20,824 nt of DNA, from the IMG/VR virus record IMGVR_UViG_3300020478_000086, positions 1-20,824 of that record; one strand, 5' to 3'. This document shows positions 13,437-16,912 of the stretch, piece by piece. A program made the translations under genes and the position numbers. Below the pieces are notes generated by a model. It searched no databases and was not told the origin of the DNA. It was given only the letters and a program-made list of their open reading frames with translations. The DNA comes from a virus. Positions within the stretch are counted from its first letter, which is position 1, and each line of letters starts with the position of its first letter.

Positions 13437-13960
13437 TTTGGTAACCTCTCTCGGTATTTTGCACGGCCAGTAACGACTTTCTCCATTTGTTGTTCACTAT
13501 AATGACCAACGTAATATCCTTTAGCCTCTAACTGTTTAGATGCATTATCAAGGGCTGTAATTCTTTGTACCATTACTATAGTATACATCTCATCTATTTT
13601 ACATAGTAACCAGATGTCTTTTCCCTTTTGATTCAGAAACGTGTTGAGTCCATCGACGCCGCCGCCCATGTTATCCTGATTTATATAATTCGCATTACTC
13701 TTAGCAACAACTAAGACAACATCATATGTGTCATCAAATGCATCTACCTCTTTACTTACTGCCTCCCAAAAGTCATAGGCACTAAAGTAATCATATACCT
13801 TTACATACTTAATCTTACCATCATCCTTAGCTTTCTTTGCAAAAGGACAACGTGCTCCTTCATAGACAGTATCTTTACCAATATGGTCTTTATCAGTTTC
13901 ACCTAACCAATTAACCCAATCATTAGTAAAGTCCTCAAGGAAATCGAGAACGTGTCCCAT
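13433..13960 (-). CDS. 175-aa hypothetical protein with CPFA motif
   Basis: The protein starts MGHVLDFLEDFTNDWVNWLG and has a single conspicuous cysteine motif, GARCPFAKKA (C38), then an alternating helix-strand pattern: KIKYVKVYDY, a helix to about residue 75, a hydrophobic strand YDVVLVVAKSN, and a second strand half DIWLLCKIDEMYTIVMVQRI. CPFA-type cysteines occur in the DUF1415 group, which it resembles only loosely. It sits directly upstream of an oxygenase-like gene with a 4-nt ATGA overlap, and its own start overlaps the stop of the 55-aa gene by 1 nt (TAATG), so it may act with the oxygenase; that is inference. No signal peptide or membrane helix is seen. Confidence 0.7.
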   Translation of the reverse strand: MGHVLDFLEDFTNDWVNWLGETDKDHIGKDTVYEGARCPFAKKAKDDGKIKYVKVYDYFSAYDFWEAVSKEVDAFDDTYDVVLVVAKSNANYINQDNMGGGVDGLNTFLNQKGKDIWLLCKIDEMYTIVMVQRITALDNASKQLEAKGYYVGHYSEQQMEKVVTGRAKYRERLPK

Positions 13961-14848: not shown

Positions 14849-14880
14849 TAATAGAACCCTTACTACTTATGGTTCTATTA
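14849..14880 (-). other. perfect 10-bp hairpin with the stop codon in its loop
   Basis: On the minus strand TAATAGAACC (14880-14871) pairs fully with GGTTCTATTA (14858-14849) around a 12-nt loop. The TAA stop of the 56-aa gene lies in the loop. No T run follows; the next bases are AAAAGAAG and the ATG of the 100-aa gene. It is therefore more likely an RNA stability, processing or translation-control element than a terminator. Confidence 0.65.
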
Positions 14881-15037
14881 TATCACAAATACTCCCATCT
14901 ATCAACAGCCTATGTCTTTTACCTGTTGACTTAGCCCTTGCACTAGCACTCTTATATGCAAATGCTTCATTATGCATATACTGTAAGTGATGCCACTTAC
15001 CGAATTGATCCTGCCACTCTATGTCAACCTTGGACAT
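14867..15037 (-). CDS. 56-aa small conserved-type cyanophage protein, basic
   Basis: The protein reads MSKVDIEWQDQFGKWHHLQY, then MHNEAFAYKSASARAKSTGKRHRL and ends ICDIIEP. The WQDQFGKWHH strand pair plus a basic helix and RHRL resembles a short protein I recall as common in cyanophages. The basic helix (residues 29-43) could contact nucleic acid; that is inference. It is the first gene after the strong promoter at 15194-15222, behind a leader of about 150 nt, and heads the operon running to the oxygenase-like genes. AGG 9 nt before the ATG could serve as ribosome binding site. The stop lies in the loop of a perfect hairpin. Confidence 0.75.
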   Translation of the reverse strand: MSKVDIEWQDQFGKWHHLQYMHNEAFAYKSASARAKSTGKRHRLLIDGSICDIIEP

Positions 15038-15187
15038 TTTTTTATACCTGAAAAATTTTTTGAAATGGAATAATATATAGCTCTCGCTTTTGGTTCGTTG
15101 TAGGTTAGGGACTTAAGCGTTTTTATAACCCGCCCATCGCCCATCAGGGAGCAGCAAACCTAAAGCAAATTAACTGCGAGTTTGCTC
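15038..15187 (-). other. about 150-nt transcribed leader of the 56-aa gene
   Basis: This is the expected untranslated leader from the start near 15187 to ATG 15037. It includes a GC-rich patch with GCCCATC written twice in tandem on the plus strand (15131-15145) and a possible 5-bp GCAAA/TTTGC stem near the 5' end. No ORF begins in it, and I do not recognise a riboswitch. It is unusually long for this compact genome. Confidence 0.5.
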
Positions 15188-15193
15188 TATTTT

Positions 15194-15222
15194 ATTATAT
15201 CATATTTGTGCTCTTATGTAAA
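15194..15222 (-). promoter_or_regulatory. strong sigma-70-type promoter (TTTACA-17-TATAAT)
   Basis: The minus strand has TTTACA (15222-15217), 17 bp and a perfect TATAAT (15199-15194). The -35 sits inside TGTAAAGCAAAT, a degenerate copy of the array core, so the tandem array lies directly upstream of the -35. Transcription should begin near 15187 and read toward the 56-aa gene. Confidence 0.8.
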
Positions 15223-15243
15223 GCAAATGCTCATGAATGAGTT

Positions 15244-15716
15244 TGAGCAATTTAGTGAGGCATATTGCCATGCCTTAAATGTAGCAAATTAAAAGAAATG
15301 TGTATTTTATAAAATGTAGCAAATAGATGTATATATTGCCTGCCTTATGTATTAATTAGTATAGGCATATTGCCTTATATTAAATGTAGCAAATAGGCGT
15401 ATAATATGCCATGCCTTAATTGTTAATTAGTGTGGCATATATGTGTATATAAAGTTGCTCAAATGGCATGCCATATTAGTGTGCCTTAAATGTAGCAAAT
15501 AGTTGTATATATTATATGCCTTATATGTAGCAAATTGATTGCATATATGTGCTGTGGAAAATGTAGCAAATAGGCATATGATTGCCTGCCATTAAGTGTT
15601 ATATAAGCGGGTCTATATTAGGGGTCTTATATGTAGCAAACTGTGTGTGCCATATATGTTAATTAGTATAAGCATATATTCATCCTTAAATGTAGCAAAT
15701 TGGTGCGGATAATTAG
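15244..15716. repeat. tandem array of about 35-bp units with core TGTAGCAAAT
   Basis: The core TGTAGCAAAT occurs at 15280, 15315, 15385, 15491, 15526, 15562 and 15691, and with a final C at 15632. Spacings are 35, 70, 106, 35, 36, 70 and 59 bp, mostly multiples of about 35. Degenerate units fill the gaps: TGAGCAATTT at 15244, TTGCTCAAAT at 15455, and TTAATTAGT-containing units at 15350 and 15420. GCCTTAAA or a close variant usually precedes the core, and AT-rich alternating TATATA plus GGCATATTGCC or ATGGCATGCCAT palindromes lie between. The array is bounded by a terminator on its right and a strong promoter on its left and contains no gene. Confidence 0.85.
15553..15561 (-). other. DnaA-box-like 9-mer (TTTTCCACA) inside the array
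   Basis: TGTGGAAAA on the plus strand (TTTTCCACA on minus) immediately precedes a TGTAGCAAAT core. The 9-mer equals the form I recall for cyanobacterial DnaA boxes and occurs five times within 1.15 kb here. Confidence 0.5.
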
Positions 15717-15733
15717 TTGCTCAAATAGGTAAT

Positions 15734-15761
15734 AAAAAAGGGGGTCTATATGTAACCCCCC
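15734..15761 (-). terminator. Rho-independent terminator isolating the repeat array
   Basis: On the minus strand GGGGGT (15760-15755) pairs with ACCCCC (15745-15740) around a 9-nt loop, followed by six T at 15739-15734. It should stop transcripts coming from the 64-aa gene before they enter the array. Confidence 0.85.
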
Positions 15762-15790
15762 GTATATACAGTTGTTTATACTAACTGTTT

Positions 15791-15985
15791 TTATAAAAGT
15801 GTAGCATGCTTAGAGTTAATCTTGCCTCGGTTTGTGTTAGTTCTGATGCCTTTAGTTTGTGTAAACCAACAATCAGATTTACGAGGTTTGTTAGCAGGTA
15901 GTCTTACATATTTGATTTTGTTTTGTGTGTCCAAAATCTGTAAATCTAACCTAGTTAATGTGCTCAAATCAGAAGGTAATTGCAT
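15791..15985 (-). CDS. 64-aa basic hypothetical protein
   Basis: The ORF reads MQLPSDLSTLTRLDLQILDT, then KIKYVRLPANKPRKSDCWFTQ, and ends KHATLL. It is rich in Lys/Arg with a single Cys, and could bind nucleic acid. An overlapping plus-strand frame (15822-16034) is as long. I prefer the minus frame because every neighbour is on that strand, a terminator follows it, and its composition is that of a soluble protein. The start is uncertain: no Shine-Dalgarno precedes the ATG, which abuts a TTTTCCACA box. If that box is bound by DnaA, the gene's expression would be affected. Function unknown. Confidence 0.5.
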   Translation of the reverse strand: MQLPSDLSTLTRLDLQILDTQNKIKYVRLPANKPRKSDCWFTQTKGIRTNTNRGKINSKHATLL

Positions 15986-16014
15986 GTGGAAAAATGTTAA
16001 TGAACTGTGGAAAA
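15985..16014 (-). other. pair of DnaA-box-like 9-mers spaced 21 bp
   Basis: TGTGGAAAA occurs on the plus strand at 15985-15993 and 16006-16014, in the same orientation and 21 bp apart, two helical turns, so both would face the same side of the DNA. They lie in the 45-nt gap between two minus-strand genes. Confidence 0.6.
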
Positions 16015-16030
16015 GTGTAAGGACGATTGC

Positions 16031-16378
16031 TTAAACAACTTGTAACGATTGCTCATTACTAAGTATCATCCCATCCCAAAACATTAACGTTTCTTTGTTC
16101 TTACCTAAGAACCAAACAAAATTCTTTTGAAACACTCTAACACCATAATTAACTTCACTAAGTAAAGCATTCAAGCGTGATTTTGTAGTTACTGTTTCAT
16201 AACCGCAAGAGTCTAATTTGACTGCTTTAGTGTTATGATCGTAAACTGCAATTTCATGCCCGTGTAGTAAAACAGTAGAACAATTTGAATTTTCGTTGTA
16301 ACTAACTGCTGTATTGGATTTGCTCCAATTAGACTTGCTGATTACAGCGTTGTTCATTGCTCTTTCGATTTTACGCAT
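16031..16378 (-). CDS. 115-aa hypothetical protein (DUF8033-like)
   Basis: The protein opens MRKIERAMNNAVISKSNWSK, contains a beta-rich middle (TVLLHGHEIAVYDHNTKAV, residues 35-53) and the block TTKSRLNALLSEVNYGVRVF followed by QKNFVWFL. The order strand-pair, TTKSRLNALL helix, QKNFxWFL and a C-terminal FWDGMIL strand matches a group of short phage proteins I recall as DUF8033; this is from memory, and no molecular function is known to me. It is the last recognisable domain-type gene before the regulatory core, 46 nt ahead of the 64-aa gene, and two DnaA-box-like sequences lie in that gap. A promoter candidate lies about 25 nt upstream. Confidence 0.7.
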   Translation of the reverse strand: MRKIERAMNNAVISKSNWSKSNTAVSYNENSNCSTVLLHGHEIAVYDHNTKAVKLDSCGYETVTTKSRLNALLSEVNYGVRVFQKNFVWFLGKNKETLMFWDGMILSNEQSLQVV

Positions 16379-16405
16379 AAATTGTGCTTAATGTGTTTAC
16401 TCTTA

Positions 16406-16434
16406 TATAATAGTCCATAATGACGCATTTACAA
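16406..16434 (-). promoter_or_regulatory. candidate sigma-70-type promoter for the 115-aa gene
   Basis: The minus strand shows TTGTAA (16434-16429), 17 bp and ATTATA (16411-16406), overlapping other TA-rich -10 options. The start would be near 16399, about 20 nt before the ATG. Moderate match only. Confidence 0.4.
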
Positions 16435-16469
16435 CCCCTTAGTGGACACTATTTTGACTGGCACAGTAA

Positions 16470-16485
16470 TTTGAGCAATTTAGTG
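16470..16485. repeat. 16-bp exact repeat of the array edge
   Basis: TTTGAGCAATTTAGTG at 16470-16485 is identical to 15242-15257 at the left edge of the array, 1.2 kb away. Both contain the enriched GAGCAA word. Confidence 0.7.
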
Positions 16486-16521
16486 GGTTTATATGGGTTC
16501 GGTAACTTATAACGAATTTCC

Positions 16522-16550
16522 TTGCCTTTTTCGAGGATTTGTGTTATAAT
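16522..16550 (+). promoter_or_regulatory. strong plus-strand promoter opposing all genes
   Basis: TTGCCT (16522-16527), a 17-bp spacer and a perfect TATAAT (16545-16550) predict RNA from about 16557 reading right. No credible plus-strand gene follows. A run of seven T at 16623-16629, preceded only by a 4-bp ATAG/CTAT stem, might end a short RNA of about 70 nt; otherwise the RNA would enter the inverted 9-mer pair and run antisense to the genes beyond 16.7 kb. Confidence 0.6.
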
Positions 16551-16661
16551 GCACGCCAAGATAACTATAATTCGCTACATTTATTAACGATAAGTATGAA
16601 AGAGATAGAGCACACAACTATGTTTTTTTAACCATTTATTTAATATACTTAAATGGCATAC

Positions 16662-16693
16662 TTTTCCACATAAATTGCTCAAACTGTGGAAAA
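16662..16693. other. inverted pair of DnaA-box-like 9-mers
   Basis: TTTTCCACA (16662-16670) and TGTGGAAAA (16685-16693) form a perfect 9-bp inverted repeat around a 14-nt centre that holds TTGCTC. It could be a paired protein-binding site or an RNA hairpin downstream of the 65-aa gene. Confidence 0.6.
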
Positions 16694-16714
16694 TTACCTC
16701 TTAATTGTTGATAA

Positions 16715-16912
16715 CTAATAACCCTTATTGTCTCTCTGTAGATAACATATTTTGTCTAAGAGATTGAGCAACATAGTGTAAATATTGCCCGACTCATTAA
16801 CATTTACGTCATCATATTCACTGAGCATTGTTAATACTAACATTTTCAACATTGACAATTCTTGAGCATTAAACTCTGAGTTAATTAGACGTTCTAATTG
16901 TTCATGGGTCAT
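16715..16912 (-). CDS. 65-aa hypothetical early-type protein
   Basis: The protein begins MTHEQLERLINSEFNAQELS and continues as helices (LKMLVLTMLSEYDD, then IYTMLLNLLDKICYL). It is a short all-helical protein with amphipathic, Leu/Met-rich segments and no recognised domain. The start overlaps the 48-aa gene by 11 nt; the Shine-Dalgarno GGAGG lies in the 3' codons of that gene. It is the last gene of the cluster before the 336-bp region with the plus-strand promoter, the 16-bp repeat and the inverted 9-mers, and no ordinary terminator follows. Function unknown. Confidence 0.7.
   Translation of the reverse strand: MTHEQLERLINSEFNAQELSMLKMLVLTMLSEYDDVNVNESGNIYTMLLNLLDKICYLQRDNKGY

Follow-up and report, generated by a model that had tools for sequence, protein, structure and literature searches.

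A tandem array of 35-bp units with conserved cores in a candidate replication origin of a T4-like cyanophage

Genes and signals at the locus

The window, that is, the whole stretch of 20,824 nucleotides that was analysed, stems from a T4-like cyanophage; its best matches were S-SSM7 and S-SSM6a, 77% identical across some 55% of its length, with gp6, gp7 and gp25 among the matching genes. T4-like cyanophages are among the most abundant viruses of the ocean. Every gene near the array lies on the minus strand, and the order on that strand is Kyano_Gp96, p64, terminator, array, promoter, conserved non-coding element, p56, small genes, gp25 and gp6 (Table 1). The structure model of p64 had low confidence. 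The fold of p56 was predicted with high confidence (pLDDT 95), and the only clear PDB matches of this model were the Dmd proteins of T4 and RB69 (TM 0.73-0.69, probability 1.00, E 0.04-0.14, 9% identity). Dmd is a phage antitoxin against RnlA/LsoA; judging from the modelled fold, p56 is a possible cyanophage counter-defence protein.

The original prediction had placed the array between a terminator and a strong promoter, and both were recovered, at 15761-15739 and 15222-15194, respectively, on the minus strand. The promoter points towards the conserved element and, beyond it, the late operon. Its −35 is overlapped by a degenerate core, AAAGCAAAT, at 15220-15228, as had been proposed for the leftmost degenerate copy. 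The DnaA-type boxes and the conserved non-coding element adjacent to the array, however, had been overlooked in that inventory. A tandem array of promoters was considered and rejected: promoter-like sites between 14800 and 16800 numbered 12 against 11.2 expected, with one weak minus-strand site in the array. A promoter-like TTGCCT-17-TATAAT at 16522-16550 (+) runs against the direction of all genes.

Table 1. Features of the array locus, in window coordinates
Feature	Position	Strand	Basis
p56, small protein, predicted beta-beta-alpha-beta-beta fold like T4/RB69 Dmd	14867..15037	-	ORF + structure prediction
Conserved non-coding element, invariant core CCCTAACCTACAACGAACC	15042..15140	-	conservation across cyanophages
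Sigma70-type promoter TTTACA-17-TATAAT, 11/12 matches, TG before -10	15194..15222	-	promoter scan; homologous position in relatives
TTGCTCAAA variant site	15242..15250	-	motif search
Tandem array of ~13 slots, 8 of them with an intact core; period ~35.3 bp, approximate unit GGCATATTGCCNNGCCTTAAATGTAGCAAATNG	15258..15727	+	repeat analysis; conserved in L016, L021
Core 1 TGTAGCAAAT	15280..15289	+	motif search
Core 2 TGTAGCAAAT	15315..15324	+	motif search
Core 3 TGTAGCAAAT	15385..15394	+	motif search
TTGCTCAAA variant site within array	15455..15463	+	motif search
Core 4 TGTAGCAAAT	15491..15500	+	motif search
Core 5 TGTAGCAAAT	15526..15535	+	motif search
DnaA-type box TTTTCCACA in array	15553..15561	-	motif search
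Core 6 TGTAGCAAAT, abuts DnaA-type box	15562..15571	+	motif search
Core 7 TGTAGCAAAC	15632..15641	+	motif search
Core 8 TGTAGCAAAT	15691..15700	+	motif search
TTGCTCAAA variant site, end of array	15717..15725	+	motif search
Terminator-like hairpin, end of upstream transcript	15739..15761	-	terminator scan
p64, small basic protein, often adjoins conserved element	15791..15985	-	ORF + relatives
DnaA-type box TTTTCCACA at p64 start	15985..15993	-	motif search
DnaA-type box TTTTCCACA upstream of p64	16006..16014	-	motif search
Kyano_Gp96 family protein (PF23790)	16031..16378	-	family match
TTGCTCAAA variant site upstream of Gp96 gene, part of 16-bp repeat TTTGAGCAATTTAGTG	16470..16478	-	motif search
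Core-like TGTAGCGAAT upstream of Gp96 gene	16570..16579	-	motif search
DnaA-type box, left arm of inverted pair (14-bp interior)	16662..16670	+	motif search
TTGCTCAAA variant site flanked by two inverted DnaA-type boxes	16675..16683	+	motif search
DnaA-type box, right arm of inverted pair	16685..16693	-	motif search

The array and its apparent growth among relatives

Eight cores of the form TGTAGCAAA[T/C], seven of them exactly TGTAGCAAAT and one TGTAGCAAAC, lie on the plus strand at 15280-15700 with spacings of 35/70/106/35/36/70/59, corresponding to a unit of 35-36 bp and a single irregular gap of 59. About five slots have no core and carry CTTAATTGTTAATTAGT-like sequence or AAAGTTGCTCAAAT instead. 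These details refine the original description, in which spacings were mostly multiples of about 35 bp with degenerate units among the cores. The array itself was confirmed, but not the extent given for it (15217-15716), since the array proper runs from about 15258 to 15727. Its regularity goes beyond chance, as had been claimed: shuffled array sequence contained 0.012 cores on average and at most 2 (2000 shuffles), and the autocorrelation peaked at lags 70 (z 5.8), 106 (5.3), 71 (4.6) and 36 (3.6), compared with a maximum z of 4.2 over all lags in 300 shuffles. These peaks fit a period of about 35.3 bp; TRF returned periods of 70 and 35. Over the 19 units of the window and L016, the core was intact in every one, with all positions of A-N-ATGTAGCAAA invariant save N, which was A or T, and with CTTA usually preceding it.

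In line with the original description as neither coding nor CRISPR, the array contains no ORF that reaches 40 aa. A CRISPR array was ruled out, since only the 10-bp core is invariant and the rest of the unit is common but drifting; no cas gene was recognised among the ORFs of the window. The GC content was 31% in the array versus 35% in the window. Tested as an unwinding element, the array turned out more stable than some other stretches of the window. The locus gave no match above gathering scores in Rfam. The original prediction knew of no described element of this form in cyanophages, and our search of the open-access literature likewise found none.

A variant site, TTGCTCAAA, occurs five times in the window, always between 15242 and 16683, against an expected 0.33. 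As one of these copies sits between inverted DnaA-type boxes, the array is tied to the neighbouring intergenic region. An exact 16-bp repeat, TTTGAGCAATTTAGTG, is common to 15242 and 16470, 1.2 kb apart. At a place apparently equivalent to that of the core-like site upstream of the Gp96 gene, L016, L030 and L040 carry TGTAGCAAA on the same strand.

IMG/VR was scanned for pairs of cores some 35 bp from each other. Of the 19 loci obtained, only L016 and L021 matched the window, and both had the same array between the same neighbours. The remainder (L011-L015, L017-L020, L022-L029), mostly with no BLAST match to the window and with a different spacing, were discarded as relatives, which leaves the array in three contigs. 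A cultured phage carrying the array was not found. The L021 contig stops inside the array and that of L043, a close relative, at the conserved element, as contigs tend to break at repeats. In L016 the array is longer by about 213 bp, or about 6 units. Where window and L016 could be aligned one to one, differences affected 0/80 core positions and 40/402 other positions, with 19 gaps (Fisher p=0.0007), although the cores had been chosen as intact in the window, which biases the count somewhat towards 0/80. One core was altered in L021.

The expectation of a similar array in relatives with the same gene order was borne out by L016 and L021 but not by more distant phages of that gene order, which have one or two units: two in L030/L031 and L040, and one (ATTGCC..CTTAAG..GCAAA) in L033-L035 and L038. 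In such low-copy relatives the units always lie over or beside the −35 of the homologous promoter, and no further copy of this promoter-flank unit turned up in the 1.3 Mb of related loci examined. Since these distant relatives of the same gene order have their one or two units at the −35, the array looks like a tandem amplification of a promoter-flank element, and the forms with one or two units over the promoter are ancestral-looking. The array is absent in relatives whose p64 is 77-98% identical. L145, distant in sequence, has a different 35-bp unit in 4.3 copies, 92-256 bp past the conserved element, and this unit, too, resembles promoter and transcript-start sequence. Four DnaA-type boxes lie farther out than the array of L145. 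In L082, a 33-bp tandem array of 3.9 copies was seen 879-1006 bp past the conserved element.

A conserved non-coding element and DnaA-type boxes

The conserved element lies upstream of gp25/gp6. GGTTCGTTGTAGGTTAGGG was present exactly in at least 119 IMG/VR stretches, and a 54-nt version of the element in at least 120 phage records, once per record and mostly unannotated; the organisms of these records were all cyanophages or marine viruses. The gene that follows the element varies widely between phages, which means that the element does not serve a single gene as its leader. In an alignment of 42 sequences, 22 columns were invariant. The RNA consensus fold of the element had zero pairs, and the idea of a structured RNA was dropped for this reason. 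Taken together, the invariant columns and the lack of a common RNA fold suggest that the element is recognised as sequence itself.

TTTTCCACA is known as a species-specific cyanobacterial DnaA box (PMC4674748). The 20.8-kb window contains five exact copies, all within 15553-16693 and one of them within the array; shuffles of 15217-16716 had 0.02 copies on average and at most 2 (5000 shuffles). Counted per kb, boxes were 24 times as frequent up to 1.4 kb from the conserved element (106 in 113 kb) as elsewhere (27 in 681 kb). Because it had first been spotted by eye, a word-free 9-mer enrichment was run on 42 dereplicated cyanophage loci over the 1.4 kb past the conserved element. TTTTCCACA was the top-enriched 9-mer (47 in 55 kb vs 7 in 264 kb), with two or more boxes in 13/42 loci. 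In 13 complete cyanophage genomes, 14 of the 41 boxes fell at this locus, which makes up 0.8% of the DNA; the corresponding naive binomial value of about 1e-19 ignores relatedness. Two or more boxes were present at the locus in five of these genomes (S-SM2, P-SSM7, ACG-2014b, S-RIM2 and P-TIM68), and boxes were absent there in the other eight, including P-SSM2, P-SSM4 and S-SSM7.

The metagenomic relatives L112, L118 and L148 exhibited dense oriC-like clusters with 11-bp repeats, the boxes following one another at 11 bp; the cluster of L118, in a cyanophage contig, occupies 13569-13830. An inverted pair, TTTTCCACA-N14/15-TGTGGAAAA, recurs across genera with a varied interior. It was seen in the window at 16662-16693 and in L016, L030, L094, L102, P-SSM7, ACG-2014b and S-RIM2. 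Among 117 viral contigs with three clustered boxes, the conserved element was absent from the stretch examined in 111 and present in six, there always in the same orientation and 0.45-1.3 kb away. Triple clusters are thus no hallmark of phages that carry the element, which speaks against the origin reading. A scan of genome contigs for triple boxes matched many phyla and gave no pointer to a host. A link between cyanophages and DnaA boxes was not found in the open-access literature.

Possible roles: replication origin or control of the promoter

Since the cores are conserved, it is likely that some protein binds them. The original prediction had offered an iteron-like origin, an operator array or a protein sink as options, and of these the origin has gained circumstantial support from the boxes, the conserved element and the position of T4 oriE. 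The combination seen upstream of gp25/gp6, with a single-copy conserved non-coding element, boxes of the DnaA type, a strong promoter and direct repeats, looks like a replication origin. Evenly spaced direct repeats, as found in the array, mark iteron-type origins; a cluster of host-type DnaA boxes, the mark of oriC-like origins, is also found at the locus, though in 8/13 complete relatives it is absent. We tentatively favour, while giving it somewhat less than an even chance, that the array is an iteron-like cluster of putative binding sites for a protein and that it lies within a candidate origin of replication of the phage. The array may then be part of the site where phage DNA replication starts. 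The cores ATGTAGCAAA, about 35 bp apart, would be sites for a DNA-binding protein, and the array would have arisen by tandem amplification of the element found in one or two copies at the −35 of relatives. This core-binding protein, together with host DnaA or replacing it, would load in many copies on the array and open or bend AT-rich DNA, and the leader transcript would be coupled to priming of the first forks.

Known origins share several of these traits. T4 oriE consists of evenly spaced direct repeats with an early promoter (PMC3016281). The annotation puts it in the baseplate region, 1.7 kb upstream of gene 6. Both loci belong to T4-like phages, combine iterons with an early-type promoter and lie upstream of this gene; this agreement is positional and not proof of homology. 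The T4 repeats, however, are 12 nt long and lie within gene 5, with repEA/repEB antisense, whereas the array is non-coding with units of about 35 bp, and its neighbouring genes have annotations unrelated to those at oriE. The 10 kb around T4 oriE contained no DnaA-type box, and T4 is not known to use or depend on DnaA. At the origin of the PLE satellite, RepA binds non-coding repeats of about 30 bp, and natural iteron duplications occur (PMC8263062). These repeats resemble the array in length and non-coding position and are bound by a specific protein, but they comprise three semi-palindromic copies with a known RepA, as opposed to more than ten direct copies with a putative binder. Clusters of TTTTCCACA likewise occur at cyanobacterial oriC; our locus differs in lying in a phage, without adjacent dnaA/dnaN, and in spreading its boxes over 1.1 kb, though they are dense in L118. 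At the R-loop origin oriF (uvsY) of T4, too, a promoter fires into a non-coding stretch beside the origin region, but it is a MotA middle promoter, whereas that of the window has the sigma70 consensus.

GC skew showed no switch at the element in S-SSM7 and P-TIM40, a test that is uninformative since nearly all genes of these phages lie on one strand. Third-codon-position skew in the window was similar on both sides. With boxes absent in eight of 13 genomes and the array in three contigs, neither is universal for origin function.

The main rival is an operator array, which we consider a real but lesser possibility. A phage or host regulator on the cores would repress or activate the promoter at 15222-15194 and so time the transcript of the small genes and the baseplate operon; replication would be uninvolved, and the DnaA-type boxes would be transcriptional sites or a separate feature. 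The array abuts the promoter with a degenerate core overlapping the −35, the unit itself lies over the −35 in relatives with one or two units, and TGTAGCAAA is found at the expected transcript start in L030 and L040. This option keeps its weight, as the unit stems from sequence flanking the adjacent promoter. At 470 bp and more than ten slots, though, the array is long for an operator, and direct repeats 35.3 bp apart correspond to about 3.4 helical turns, so that successive cores face different sides of the DNA. DnaA-type clusters at the locus in phages lacking the array would also be left without explanation. As the boxes are often absent, the array is rare and skew gave no signal, we hold the origin-linked reading against the transcriptional operator with corresponding caution.

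The rarity of the array (three contigs), the difference of about 6 units between close relatives and its absence next to p64 genes 77-98% identical would also suit a neutral or nearly neutral satellite, in which a stretch beside the promoter was amplified by replication slippage or unequal recombination and copy number has no function. We regard this as improbable, since the cores are invariant in 19/19 units of two genomes while the rest diverges, and since L145 acquired an array of its own at this spot, different in sequence but equal in period. One site in many copies in a compact non-coding region might finally act as a sink that titrates a DNA-binding protein of the host or the phage, for instance to release a host process from control by that protein. 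This is very unlikely: in all relatives the site goes with a single promoter, with no scattered copies across the 1.3 Mb of related loci.

A described replication origin of T4-like cyanophages was not found in the open-access literature, and the conserved element beside DnaA-type boxes and repeat arrays provides one precise place to look for it. The locus also makes the unsettled question of the role of the T4 oriE repeats testable by comparison. Should the origin reading fail, the locus would still present the stepwise growth of a regulatory array (1, 2, ~13 and ~18 units) in close relatives. A broader proposal, which we think rather unlikely, is that the main origin of Kyanoviridae is marked by the universal element upstream of gp25/gp6, to which many lineages added host-type DnaA boxes and some added iteron arrays amplified from the leader promoter. 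If this is true, origin control in T4-like phages would be evolvable and in part dependent on the host initiator.
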